64,000 bases of DNA, taken from contig NZ_JRWG01000006.1 of assembly GCF_001573155.1 (NCBI RefSeq), positions 62,001 to 126,000 on the forward strand, written 5' to 3'. The stretch comes from Aequorivita aquimaris (GTDB taxonomy: Bacteria; Bacteroidota; Bacteroidia; Flavobacteriales; Flavobacteriaceae). Positions 53,292-56,497 of this stretch are shown here, one piece after another. Made by a program: the position numbers and the translations under genes. The stretch's first letter is position 1; each line of letters opens with the position of its first letter. The notes under the pieces are model-generated. The model ran no database searches. It was given only the letters and a program-made list of their open reading frames with translations, and was not told the origin of the DNA.

Positions 53292-54242
53292 TTATTTTTC
53301 GTTATATATATCTTTTCTGAAGTGATCCTCTTCCCCTTCCAAAATCTGTAAATAGCTTTTATAGCGGGACCACGCTATTTCCTCGTTTTCCAACGCCTCC
53401 TTTACCGCACATTGGGGTTCTTCCAAATGAAGGCAATTGTTAAATTTGCAATTTTCCTTCAGCTCAAAAAACTCGGGAAAATAATCACCCAACTCTTCCT
53501 TGTCCATTTCCACCACGCCAAAACCCTTAATTCCGGGCGTATCAATGATTTGTCCGCCAAAGGAAAGATCAAACATCTCAGCAAAAGTAGTTGTGTGCTG
53601 CCCCTGCAAATGTTGTTCAGAAATTTTTGAGGTTTTTAAATCCAGGCCGGGCTCTATGGCGTTGATTAAAGTAGATTTCCCCACGCCGCTGTGGCCCGAA
53701 AACATCGTTACCTTGTCTTTCATTATGGCTTTTACCTTGTCAATATTTTTCCCTGTCACTGCCGAAATCCCAATGCACTCGTACCCTATCTTTCGGTAAA
53801 GCGCTGCAAGGAATTTTATCTCTAATAATTCGTCTTCGTTGTAGGTATCAATTTTATTGAAAAGCAAAACGGCTTTTATGTGATAGGCTTCCGCAGTTAC
53901 CAAAAAACGATCGATAAAAGTGGTGAATGTGGGCGGGTTGTTCAACGTTATAAGCAGAAAAGCAACATCAATATTCGCGGCAATGATGTGAGTTTGTTTG
54001 GAAAGGTTTACAGATTTACGGATGATGTAATTTTCACGTTCGTCAATATGTTTTATCACCCCAACGGTTTCATCGCCTTTTTTTTCAATATCAAAATCTA
54101 CGTGGTCGCCCACGGCAACGGGATTTGTGCTTTTAATACCGCCAATTCGGAATTTCCCCTTTATACGGCAATCGTAAAATGTTCCGTTTTCTGCTTTCAC
54201 GGAATACCAGCTGCCGGTAGATTTATAGACGATGCCTTTCAT
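53292..54242 (-). CDS. rsgA: ribosome small-subunit GTPase RsgA
   Basis: 316-aa circularly permuted GTPase that finishes 30S maturation. An OB fold is at the N-terminus (GIVYKSTGSWYSV...). G4 (NKID) comes before G1 (GHSGVGKSTLINAI) and G3 (DTPGIKGFG), as in all RsgA. A zinc knuckle near the end reads CKFNNCLHLEEPQC. I start at ATG 54242; the longer frame adds five residues. It follows the DAHP synthase gene by about 20 bp. Confidence 0.96.
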   Translation of the reverse strand: MKGIVYKSTGSWYSVKAENGTFYDCRIKGKFRIGGIKSTNPVAVGDHVDFDIEKKGDETVGVIKHIDERENYIIRKSVNLSKQTHIIAANIDVAFLLITLNNPPTFTTFIDRFLVTAEAYHIKAVLLFNKIDTYNEDELLEIKFLAALYRKIGYECIGISAVTGKNIDKVKAIMKDKVTMFSGHSGVGKSTLINAIEPGLDLKTSKISEQHLQGQHTTTFAEMFDLSFGGQIIDTPGIKGFGVVEMDKEELGDYFPEFFELKENCKFNNCLHLEEPQCAVKEALENEEIAWSRYKSYLQILEGEEDHFRKDIYNEK

Positions 54243-54263
54243 CTCGCAAAGTTGCAAAACTTT

Positions 54264-55346
54264 TTACTCATTAATAACCTTTTTCTGATGGTTAATGGAT
54301 TCTTGGTGAATGGCTTTGTAAATTTTCAATACAAATTCTTCACTGAGTTTGTTCTGTTCGCCCTCAAGAATCATACGTCCCAAAACTTCATTCCAACGCT
54401 TTACCTGTAAAATGGCTACATTATTCTTCTTTTTCAAAGCGCCAATTCCGTCAACTATTTTCATCCGTTTGCCCAACATGTCCATAATTTGATCGTCAAT
54501 TAAATCAATCTGCGTGCGCATGGTATTTAATTGATTATTGAATTCGGCTTCGTCCCCTTCCACCTTTCGGATTTTTAGATCAACCGTCATTTTTTCCAAA
54601 GCCAGGGGCGTTATTTGCTGTTTCGCATCGCTCCAAGCATTGTCAGGGTCAAAGTGCGTTTCCACCATCAACCCATCATAATTTAAATCGAGCGCAGTTT
54701 GGCAAAGGTCAAAAATAATATCGCGTTTGCCCGCTATGTGTGAGGGATCCAAAATAAGCGGTAAATCTGGAAATGTGTTTTGAAGGTCTATAGGAATCTG
54801 CCATTCGGGATTGTTGCGATAACGCGTTTTTTCATAAGTAGAAAAGCCGCGGTGGATTACCCCAAGCTTGGTAATTCCGGCGGTATAAAATCGTTCCACA
54901 GCACCCAACCACAACGCCAAATCTGGGTTCACCGGGTTCTTCACCAACACAATTTTATCAGTTCCCTTTACCGCATCTGCAATTTCCTGTACAATAAATG
55001 GCGAAACCGTTGTGCGCGCGCCAATCCACAAAATATCCACATCGTGTTTTAGTGCCAAATCCACATGGTTTGCGTTTGCAACTTCAGTGGTTGTGAGCAA
55101 TCCGGTTTCTTCTTTTGCCCTTTGAAGCCATTTTAGTCCCAAGGCGCCAACGCCCTCAAAATTGCCCGGGCGGGTTCGCGGTTTCCAGATTCCGGACCGT
55201 AGCACCGAGGTGTCTGTATCCTTCAATTGATGCGCTATCTTCAGCAATTGCTCCTCAGTTTCGGCACTGCAAGGCCCCGCAATTACAAGTGGATGGTTTA
55301 ATCCAAAAGCATCTAACCAACTGCGCAGTTCTTTTTTGTTTTCCAT
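54264..55346 (-). CDS. bifunctional DAHP synthase/chorismate mutase
   Basis: 360 aa. Residues about 1-265 are a type I-beta 3-deoxy-7-phosphoheptulonate synthase: PLVIAGPCSAETEEQ, SVLRSGIWKPRTRPGNFEG, then DILWIGARTTVSPFIVQEIADA and LILDPSHIAGKRD. Residues about 275-350 are an AroQ-type chorismate mutase (MRTQIDLIDDQIMDMLGKRMKIVDGIGALKKK). It catalyses the first step and the Phe/Tyr branch point of aromatic synthesis. The fusion usually lets prephenate or aromatic products control the synthase. A leader ORF with Trp codons and a terminator precede it. Confidence 0.96.
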   Translation of the reverse strand: MENKKELRSWLDAFGLNHPLVIAGPCSAETEEQLLKIAHQLKDTDTSVLRSGIWKPRTRPGNFEGVGALGLKWLQRAKEETGLLTTTEVANANHVDLALKHDVDILWIGARTTVSPFIVQEIADAVKGTDKIVLVKNPVNPDLALWLGAVERFYTAGITKLGVIHRGFSTYEKTRYRNNPEWQIPIDLQNTFPDLPLILDPSHIAGKRDIIFDLCQTALDLNYDGLMVETHFDPDNAWSDAKQQITPLALEKMTVDLKIRKVEGDEAEFNNQLNTMRTQIDLIDDQIMDMLGKRMKIVDGIGALKKKNNVAILQVKRWNEVLGRMILEGEQNKLSEEFVLKIYKAIHQESINHQKKVINE

Positions 55347-55360
55347 AAAGTCAATTTCAT

Positions 55361-55386
55361 AAAAAAAGCCCCAATATGGGACTTTT
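55361..55386 (-). terminator. leader terminator (attenuator) of the DAHP synthase gene
   Basis: On the minus strand AAAAGTCCC / GGGGCTTTT (one T-G pair) with loop ATATT is followed by T7. It ends 15 bp before the DAHP synthase ATG and so would cut off that transcript unless the stem is prevented from forming. Confidence 0.85.
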
Positions 55387-55417
55387 CAAAAGTATATTTT
55401 AAAATACAATAATCCCA
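55377..55417 (-). promoter_or_regulatory. antiterminator of the DAHP synthase leader
   Basis: TGGGATT (55417-55411), immediately after the leader-peptide stop codon, can pair with AGTCCCA (55383-55377), giving 7 bp with one wobble. The second arm is the same sequence used by the terminator, so the two structures exclude one another. An AT-rich self-complementary stretch (GTATTTTAAAATATAC) lies between. Confidence 0.65.
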
Positions 55418-55418
55418 A

Positions 55419-55484
55419 TTAGCGAATGTTTTGGAACATATGCCACCAAGCCTTGGAAAAATTGTAAATAGGTTTCATAATCAT
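55419..55484 (-). CDS. aromatic leader peptide (tandem Trp) of the DAHP synthase gene
   Basis: A 21-codon frame, or 19 codons if the second ATG at 55478 is used, lies about 70 bp before the DAHP synthase gene. It reads MIM, KPIYNFSKA, WWHMFQNIR, then TAA. It holds two adjacent Trp codons (TGG TGG) plus one Tyr and two Phe, a strong excess of aromatic residues for so short a frame. The stop codon touches the antiterminator arm. A ribosome stalled at Trp would leave that arm free, while one reaching the stop would cover it. A near-consensus -7 box, TACTTTAG (55497-55490), lies just upstream, so the transcript leader may be very short. Confidence 0.8.
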   Translation of the reverse strand: MIMKPIYNFSKAWWHMFQNIR

Positions 55485-55576
55485 AGCCGCTAAAGTAGCC
55501 AATAATTGTGAGCTGGAAAACGTTTTATGAAAAATTTTAAATCGCGAAGTGGAAACACTTCAGAAGAAAATTTATG

Positions 55577-55597: not shown

Positions 55598-56497
55598 ATG
55601 TCGATACAAGTAGAAAATATAACCAAAACCTACGGCGAACAAAAAGCGCTGAACAAGGTTTCCTTCACCATTGAAAAAGGAGAAATCGTGGGGTTTCTGG
55701 GCCCGAACGGCGCCGGAAAATCTACAATGATGAAAATTTTGACCACCTTTCTTCCCGCTTCGGAAGGCGTGGCGATCGTGAATGGTTTTGAAGTAACCAA
55801 GGATGCTATTTCCGTAAAAAGAAGCGTTGGCTATCTGCCGGAACACAACCCGCTTTATTTGGATATGTACGTTCGCGAATATCTTCTTTTTAATGCCGGA
55901 ATTTATAATATTCCCAAAACGGAAGTTGAAAGTGTTATTGAAAAAACCGGTTTAACGCCCGAAGCGAACAAAAAAATAGGCCAACTTTCAAAAGGGTATC
56001 GCCAACGCGTTGGGCTTGCAAATGCGCTGTTGCACGACCCCGAAGTCTTGGTTTTGGATGAACCAACTACCGGTTTGGACCCAAATCAATTGATTGAAAT
56101 CCGTCAGCTTATAAAAAACGTGGGAAAGGAAAAAACGGTTTTGCTTTCCACTCACATCATGCAGGAAGTGGAAGCCATTTGCAATCGCGTAATAATTATA
56201 AACAAAGGTGAAATAGTGCTCGATAAAAAACTTTCAGATTTAAAAAATAATCAGCAACAGATTATTGAAGTGGAATTTGATTATCGCGTGGAAGAAGTAG
56301 CATTACAACATCTTCCGAAGATTCAAAAAGTTGAAAATTCCATCGGTTTTGTGTATCAGCTTTACTTTGAAACCGAACAGGATATGCGCGGAAAGGTCTT
56401 CGATTTTGCACACGATAATGGCTTAAAAATACTTCAGCTCCACCAAAAAAATACAACGCTCGAAAAATTGTTTTCTGAATTGACTATTCAAAAATAA
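55598..56497 (+). CDS. gldA: gliding motility ABC transporter ATP-binding protein GldA
   Basis: 299-aa ATPase. Walker A is GPNGAGKST at 35-43, the Q-loop region is YLPEHNPLYLDMYVREYL, the signature is LSKGYRQRVGLANALL, Walker B is VLVLDEPTTGLDP, and the switch His is in STHIMQEVEAICN. The YLPEHNPLY block and the C-terminal extension match GldA of gliding flavobacteria, which works with membrane proteins GldF and GldG. Those genes are not here. Its last 14 bp overlap the convergent lipoprotein gene. Confidence 0.9.
   Translation: MSIQVENITKTYGEQKALNKVSFTIEKGEIVGFLGPNGAGKSTMMKILTTFLPASEGVAIVNGFEVTKDAISVKRSVGYLPEHNPLYLDMYVREYLLFNAGIYNIPKTEVESVIEKTGLTPEANKKIGQLSKGYRQRVGLANALLHDPEVLVLDEPTTGLDPNQLIEIRQLIKNVGKEKTVLLSTHIMQEVEAICNRVIIINKGEIVLDKKLSDLKNNQQQIIEVEFDYRVEEVALQHLPKIQKVENSIGFVYQLYFETEQDMRGKVFDFAHDNGLKILQLHQKNTTLEKLFSELTIQK

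Follow-up and report, generated by a model that had tools for sequence, protein, structure and literature searches.

What would make a gene at the entry of the aromatic pathway depend on a short reading frame with two adjacent Trp codons? The question is raised by a locus in a 64,000-nucleotide (nt) stretch of the Aequorivita aquimaris genome (contig NZ_JRWG01000006.1, positions 62,001 to 126,000; hereafter the window, in whose numbering all coordinates are given), where a leader, an antiterminator and a terminator stand 5′ of a minus-strand gene for a DAHP synthase type I fused to a chorismate mutase type II (aroF-CM, 54264..55346). Pfam matches to PF00793 (135 bits) and PF01817 (79 bits) confirm the identity that a first-pass annotation of the window had given this gene; the 360-residue product carries the chorismate mutase part at its C-terminus, and its closest named relatives are Aequorivita proteins with 95–96% identity. 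Comparison with related genomes indicates that the leader is very probably a ribosome-mediated transcription attenuator with charged tRNA-Trp as its signal, converted, probably repeatedly, from the attenuator of a pheA operon.

The leader open reading frame (ORF), MIMKPIYNFSKAWWHMFQNIR, occupies 55419..55484 of the minus strand, as do all parts of the element, and has 21 codons, or 19 when counted from the second ATG. It reads ATG ATT ATG ... TGG TGG ... CGC TAA with its stop at 55421-55419, and, as first annotated, it holds the tandem Trp codons (55443..55448, taken as the regulatory codons from the sequence and from relatives), one Tyr and two Phe. Arm 1 (TACAATTTTTCCAA, 55453..55466) lies within the ORF, and arm 2 (TTGGGATTATTGTA, 55405..55418) directly 3′ of the stop; the arm 2 core TGGGATT (55417-55411), already recognized as a 7-nt antiterminator arm, begins 1 nt past the stop codon. 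Folding and covariation pair arm 2 with arm 1 or, via TGGGATT, with arm 3 (GAAAAGTCCCA, 55377..55387), which is the 3′ side of the antiterminator as well as the 5′ side of the terminator, and folding places arm 4 (TGGGGCTTTTT, 55363..55373) on the 3′ side of the terminator. The terminator stem (55387-55377 / 55373-55363) has 11 bp including G-U pairs (−12.9 kcal/mol, z = −3.7), the T7 tract of this intrinsic terminator spans 55361..55367, and a gap of 14 nt separates its end at 55361 from the aroF-CM ATG at 55346; the first-pass annotation had found the terminator and tract correctly, with a stem of 9 bp and a distance of 15 bp. The whole leader folds with −31 kcal/mol (z −3.0, 3 of 200 shuffles equally good), and this fold joins arm 2 to TACAAT..TTCCAA, a segment of the ORF immediately 5′ of the Trp codons. 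This third helix, 1:2, had escaped an annotation that described two exclusive hairpins, 2:3 and 3:4, both of which are upheld, and because arm 2 pairs with arm 1 inside the ORF, the pairing scheme is that of the enteric trp leader, with 1:2, 2:3 and 3:4. The locus thus combines a short ORF with start and stop just 5′ of aroF-CM, an intrinsic terminator between leader and gene that is evident in sequence and fold, and codons for an amino acid of the controlled pathway, Trp, for which genes are present in the window genome while prephenate dehydratase and dehydrogenase are without a match.

By analogy with the enteric paradigm, ample Trp would let the lead ribosome reach the stop codon and cover arm 2, upon which the 3:4 terminator would form and transcription would halt before aroF-CM. 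Under Trp scarcity the ribosome would stall at TGG TGG, on or next to arm 1, leaving arm 2, 26 nt further on, free for the 2:3 helix, and aroF-CM would be transcribed; with no translation at all, 1:2 would form and termination would be the default. With arm 2 free and arm 4 absent, arm 3 pairs upstream in 20/20 sequences folded (3 to 6 of 6 core bases). Translation may start in an unusual way. A promoter-like box, TACTTTAG (55490..55497, minus strand, prediction only), resembles the Bacteroidetes −7 consensus TAnnTTTG described, with its position, in passages of a Flavobacterium psychrophilum study (PMC9723704), and transcription is predicted to start at about 55485, 5 nt after the TAnnTT[TA]G box and one nt before the first ATG. 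The mRNA may therefore be practically leaderless and initiation here leaderless; in the same passages, leaderless mRNAs make up 5.5% of those examined in F. psychrophilum. The box-to-ATG spacing is the same in 9/19 sequences of leaders that stand before aroF-CM itself (aroF-type; Aequorivita, Altibacter, G136 and G260, G and L numbers being our handles for genomes and loci), with another spacing in 5/19 and no box in 5/19.

The same layout, spelled in different letters, recurs wherever a stand-alone aroF-CM was compared in Aequorivita, Altibacter, Marinirhabdus, Marixanthomonas and others. The GGG of arm 2 follows the last Trp codon by 19–26 nt and the stop codon by −1 to 7 nt, both in 19/20 sequences, so that a stall at Trp would free arm 2 and a ribosome at the stop codon would cover it. 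When arms were swapped among 27 representatives, 13 aroF-type and 14 from before pheA (pheA-type), the true pairing was matched by 0/20000 permutations for each of 1:2, 2:3 and 3:4, compared with 15163/20000 equally good permutations in a control region (26 of the 27 sequences). In this test the arms were taken from the folded terminator and arm 2 was the best partner of arm 3, which gives an unlikely place in L018; some of the representatives belong to one genus. Over the 27, then, arm 3 covaries with arm 2 as expected of an antiterminator that excludes the terminator, and folding and covariation agree on the 1:2 helix that would free the terminator in the absence of a stalled ribosome. Within the 13 aroF-type rows alone, the equally good permutations numbered 1 for 1:2, 40 for 3:4 and 1001 for 2:3, of 20000. 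An earlier test with fixed windows in 8 lineages gave 192/40320 for 1:2 and no signal for 3:4 (25920/40320). Pair counts in 22 leaders fitted to a covariance model, R1, gave a joint 1:2 and 3:4 covariation score reached by 0/500 shuffles, in an alignment that leans to these two helices, the 2:3 structure being outside the model; the 2:3 score was also reached by 0/500. The outer 2:3 pair is U-A, C-G, A-U or U-G in 13/18 rows with letters there and broken in 5/18, and the single doubly changed 2:3 pair was reached by 452/500 shuffles, such pairs being few because 6/7 pairs are either invariant or changed on a single side. The alignment of relatives that the first-pass annotation had proposed as a check on its ribosome-mediated attenuation therefore favors that mechanism, since Trp codons and spacing are kept and the helices covary, 2:3 marginally in the stand-alone group.

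Chance is a poor source of such an arrangement. A Trp-Trp leader with terminator within 450 nt upstream arose in 0/1680 dinucleotide shuffles of the Trp-leader upstreams, and one with at least one Trp in 3/1680. An automated scan found Trp-Trp in 23/28 distinct Trp-leader upstreams and at least one Trp in 28/28, a group chosen for Trp, and Trp-Trp in 0/67 operon-type and 0/7 other upstreams; the operon-type group comprises all distinct upstreams minus the Trp-leader ones and the 7 other pheA-less ones, and most of its members follow tyrA or pheA, by pattern or by eye (L056 unsure). At the gathering cut-off, Rfam assigned no family to the leader site and one tRNA elsewhere in the window. The sub-threshold match with the lowest E there was Trp_leader RF00513, which with 24.1 bits against a cut-off of 41 (E 0.0076) falls short of membership; other sub-threshold matches besides this and Phe_leader (STnc220, snoRNAs and others) were judged to be chance. 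When the window sequence was kept out of the rows used to build it, a covariance model recovered window 55361-55484 with 115 bits (E 1.3e-17). Because MAFFT misplaced arms in alignments of all leaders (arm 3 in L001 and L004, arm 1 in Altibacter), R1 was made from 8/12 aligned rows, without L001, L004, L008 and L009. In a scan of 397 genomes of the family, 10 of the 30 loci cut stand before aroF-CM, including all 8 with E < 1e-4, and the remaining 20 look like ordinary terminators; 3 further matches (a second one in G017, G338 and G185) lie outside the 30 inspected. R1 gives weak scores to L015 and L018 (E 0.15 and 0.25), and the scans made with it did not report the genome of L201 or G015/G023, so the 10 true loci are a lower bound.

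The origin of the leader is suggested by relatives that still have pheA. In 11/11 pheA-bearing Aequorivita, a leader with FWFFYF codons lies between a divergent ABC transporter gene and pheA; an example, FNFWFFYF, is rich in Phe and Tyr and has one Trp. The arms are mostly CCGGGA / GTCCCGG / CCGGGAC, and in L153 all three are altered together (CCAGGA / GTCCTGG / CCAGGAC). Reading from the ABC gene, we found FW[FY]F[FY]F in 17/18 leaders and TWFYFYFY in the remaining one, L109; these come from 19 loci, of which L044 has no ABC gene, and 13 are new, 4 repeat Aequorivita among the 11 and L109 repeats L157. No terminator-like stretch followed the leader in the 420 nt read in 2 of the 18 (L016 and L031). 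By eye, a Phe/Tyr leader precedes pheA in 23/25 loci cut from Flavobacteriales (L142-L166; L142 and L144 are without), and pheA-type Phe/Tyr leaders with terminators apparently form a leader-RNA family of their own. The ABC gene tags the same locus by synteny in relatives with and without pheA, at a distance from aroF-CM of ~1.1–1.3 kb in pheA-type loci versus ~0.25 kb in stand-alone ones. The aroF-type leader shares the place beside the divergent ABC gene and the arm pattern; the Phe/Tyr codon run before arm 2 is missing from the window leader, which has Trp codons instead. Phe and Tyr together make up 0–24% of aroF-type versus 25–44% of pheA-type leaders (13 and 14, no overlap), and L015, L172 and L008 are without any Phe or Tyr. 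Among the aroF-type representatives 10 have two Trp codons and 3 (L110, L008 and L205) have one, and among the pheA-type representatives 1 has two, 7 have one and 6 have none. The leader of G015/G023, LWQFYF with pheA-like arms, looks like an intermediate state between the two types, and a distant relative, G091, has a Trp-Trp leader with arms GAGGCT / AGTCTC. From these comparisons we infer that the aroF-CM leader derives from the pheA-operon leader of this locus, with its Phe/Tyr(/Trp) codons: loss of pheA would have brought that leader to stand before aroF-CM, most Phe and Tyr codons would then have been lost, and Trp would have been retained and usually doubled because it is the only aromatic amino acid that the pathway still makes.

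This scenario ties the leader codons to gene content, which we examined by profile searches. Profiles for prephenate dehydratase (PF00800) and prephenate dehydrogenase (PF02153) gave no match in the window genome, with positive controls in 14/14 genomes, and the genome has trpE and one gene for indole-3-glycerol-phosphate synthase (IGPS, PF00218); G017, a single-contig genome with the same leader, has the same gene content. Prephenate dehydrogenase had no match in 27/28 Aequorivita genomes (G000-G027), the pheA-bearing ones included, G004 giving a partial match of 28 bits. Because pheA and tyrA are absent, an enzyme of the common pathway could come to heed Trp alone. Without both PF00800 and PF02153 we counted 35 distinct genomes (16 Aequorivita, 9 reached via loci, 5 from the family scan and 5 among 44 other family genomes), leaving out G007 (69% complete, no aroF-CM found) and treating G112, G131 and G341 as repeats of G067, G064 and G061; order-level genomes without prephenate dehydratase were left out of all counts. 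IGPS was used for the count because the TIGR00564 cut-off was reached in 0/36 genomes, trpE being separated from its relatives by a score gap. A Trp-codon leader with terminator is present in 26 of the 27/35 genomes that have IGPS (21 Trp-Trp and 5 single Trp, the latter G026, G059, G060, G015 and G023), compared with 2 of the 8 without IGPS (G013 and G260). Among the other six, G002, G008 and G009 have seemingly decayed leader remnants, and G081, G099 and G111 have no such leader. In a fixed sample of 52 family genomes, prephenate dehydratase was absent in 8/8 with the leader versus 5/44 others, three of the 8 repeating other genomes.

Trees indicate that the conversion probably happened more than once. 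Aequorivita forms one clade in a tree of aroF-CM (62 rows, support 99/97) and in one of the ABC protein and RsgA (59 rows, support 100/99), and each tree requires at least 5 changes between stand-alone and operon states on supported branches, with 6 and 12 on the best trees. A single clade of stand-alone genes is rejected in both (p-AU, from the approximately unbiased test, 0.008 and 3.9e-5), and the three proteins combined give 7 changes (bootstrap 7–8). The trees, made with the relatively simple LG+G4 model and without the long rows L197-L201, cover 62 (59 for the flanking genes) of 102 distinct rows, namely 27/28 Trp-leader, 3/7 pheA-less without Trp and 32/67 operon-type, and the flanking-gene bootstrap had not settled. 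A quick tree of 102 aroF-CM proteins was set aside, its support being too weak for a count of origins (a single change of the operon label is required by supported branches), and its placing of the group of the window away from the pheA-bearing Aequorivita is contradicted by the 62- and 59-row trees. The change counts give no direction; the wide occurrence of the pheA operon and its leader through the order makes loss the more likely one. It is also possible that the leader spread together with aroF-CM by recombination; the single Aequorivita clade in the aroF-CM tree speaks against this at that level, though smaller exchanges may have occurred. We consider it reasonably likely that attenuator specificity was rewritten several times independently, from Phe/Tyr to Trp after loss of the Phe/Tyr branch and with the RNA switch kept, that the switch decays once Trp synthesis is lost, and that leader translation probably starts on a leaderless mRNA.

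Other explanations of the same features have to be weighed. The Trp pair could be accidental, the attenuator reporting the general supply of Phe, Tyr and Trp, which is apparently what its pheA-type relatives do; the window leader does retain one Tyr and two Phe, and G015/G023 retain W..FYF, but the Phe+Tyr ranges of the two leader types do not overlap, leaders free of both residues exist, two Trp codons occur in 10/13 aroF-type versus 1/14 pheA-type leaders, and the Trp leader tracks the Trp genes (26/27 versus 2/8), which makes this reading improbable. A terminator and an antiterminator alone do not reveal their sensor, which might also be a metabolite-binding riboswitch, a T-box or a Trp-activated RNA-binding protein. 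Such non-ribosomal attenuation is highly improbable given that no Rfam family is found at the cut-off and that the sub-threshold match with the lowest E is itself Trp_leader, that ORF, codons and codon-to-arm spacing persist although most of the remaining letters differ, and that codon content follows the pathway. We give equally little credence to a hairpin that is merely a terminator or a 5′ RNA end beside an unused short ORF. Genes in the family are often followed by terminators of similar sequence, as in 20/30 of the scan loci, but the neighboring ABC gene is divergent, so its transcript cannot end at this site, the leader and the 1:2 helix covary, and the shuffles never produced a Trp-Trp leader with terminator (0/1680).

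Several observations weigh against the attenuator that we favor, a Trp-sensing one converted from a pheA-operon leader. In L018 a GGG arm 2 is missing from its usual position, and the best arm 3 partner overlies the Trp codons. Covariation of 2:3 is marginal within the aroF-type rows, most of its support coming from pheA-type relatives, and the first 8-lineage test with fixed windows gave no 2:3 signal (38885/40320). The RNA left after a stall at Trp folds weakly (−4.5 to −10.9 kcal/mol, mean z −0.96, 20 sequences), and in folding the terminator is favored at equilibrium, even without arm 1. In G015/G023 the leader, with one Trp and still FYF, starts ~270 nt upstream, and a promoter-like stretch (L205, L206) lies between the terminator of the old leader and aroF-CM, as if bypassing the switch. 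G100 has IGPS and neither pheA nor such a leader, G013 retains Trp-Trp without trpE or IGPS, and G260 retains Trp-Trp with no IGPS found (68% complete). Finally, the Fisher value for 26/27 versus 2/8 (p 1e-4) overstates the association because the leader was visible when the 26/27 were assigned and the genomes are not independent samples. As an observation on one of these genomes, G100 has a second DAHP synthase at G100:C8:82543-83253, ~3 kb from IGPS.

The enteric trp attenuator combines a tandem-Trp leader peptide, arms pairing as 1:2, 2:3 and 3:4, and a terminator before the first gene. The aroF-CM leader (compare RF00513) is like it in all of these; it differs in controlling the entry enzyme rather than trpE, in having arm 1 just upstream of the Trp codons and in its probably leaderless start. 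Within the genus and order, trpE leaders are likewise Trp-rich and followed by a terminator (WW or WWW in 21/22 loci, the remaining locus being cut at a contig end), but their arms and terminator differ from those at aroF-CM (GGCTTGTC...GACAAGCC in Aequorivita), making them a separate switch in the same genome. The window genome carries such a second Trp attenuator before trpE, with a WWW leader, MKTFTQNTWWWKNLRKTS, and a different terminator (L120, G000:C4 upstream of 45189).

Passages of the F. psychrophilum study (PMC9723704) give clues for leader-peptide attenuation before amino-acid operons and describe a structured 5′ element before pheA in that species and other Flavobacteriaceae, with no Rfam match for such elements. 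From its position, compared without sequence or codons, this element should be a pheA-type relative; at the window locus pheA is missing, aroF-CM follows the element and the codons specify Trp. In Corynebacterium glutamicum, a putative leader-peptide attenuation with Phe-Tyr-Phe residues precedes the DAHP synthase gene aroF, according to portions of another report (PMC4046766); the aroF-CM leader resembles it, by description rather than sequence, in preceding a DAHP synthase gene, and differs in its Trp codons and phylum. A gene can exchange one sensing system for another, as part of a further paper relates for hisS (PMC2965389). Our search of open-license PMC literature turned up neither a Trp leader described for DAHP synthase/chorismate mutase nor a leader codon change following pathway loss. 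The mechanism is thus of a known kind and the retargeting is the new part, since the attenuation clues and the pheA element are published and the Trp leader and codon change were not found reported. The claim of the first-pass annotation that this design was undescribed for such a gene in the phylum accordingly holds for the Trp leader on this gene and not for flavobacterial leader-peptide attenuation, clues for which had appeared in those passages; its account also lacked the correspondence to the pheA-operon leader and a reason for sensing Trp alone.

Downstream of aroF-CM on the same strand lies rsgA, for an RsgA GTPase (53292..54257, minus strand, PF03193 and synteny), which is 3′ of aroF-CM in most relatives checked and is possibly co-transcribed with it. 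The divergent gene (55598..56497, plus strand, PF00005 and synteny) encodes an ABC transporter ATPase that we take to be gldA-like. In the chorismate mutase domain, the likely catalytic residues R277, R294, K305, R317, S350 and Q354, presumed from our own mapping onto the Escherichia coli enzyme, are kept in 28/28 Trp-leader and 7/7 other pheA-less proteins, and despite the lack of a prephenate dehydratase or dehydrogenase match the domain may serve as an allosteric or structural part. A palindrome, AAAACGTTTT, at 55515-55524, near the −33 region and also in the upstreams of several relatives, could be a promoter or operator.

For the biology of this group, the comparison points toward control of the aromatic entry enzyme by a Trp switch. 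It provides a natural series in which gene content predicts the codons of a regulatory leader, and it makes the old question of how attenuators gain or change specificity testable in close relatives, with a short codon run before a gene as a readable marker of the amino acids that a genome still makes.
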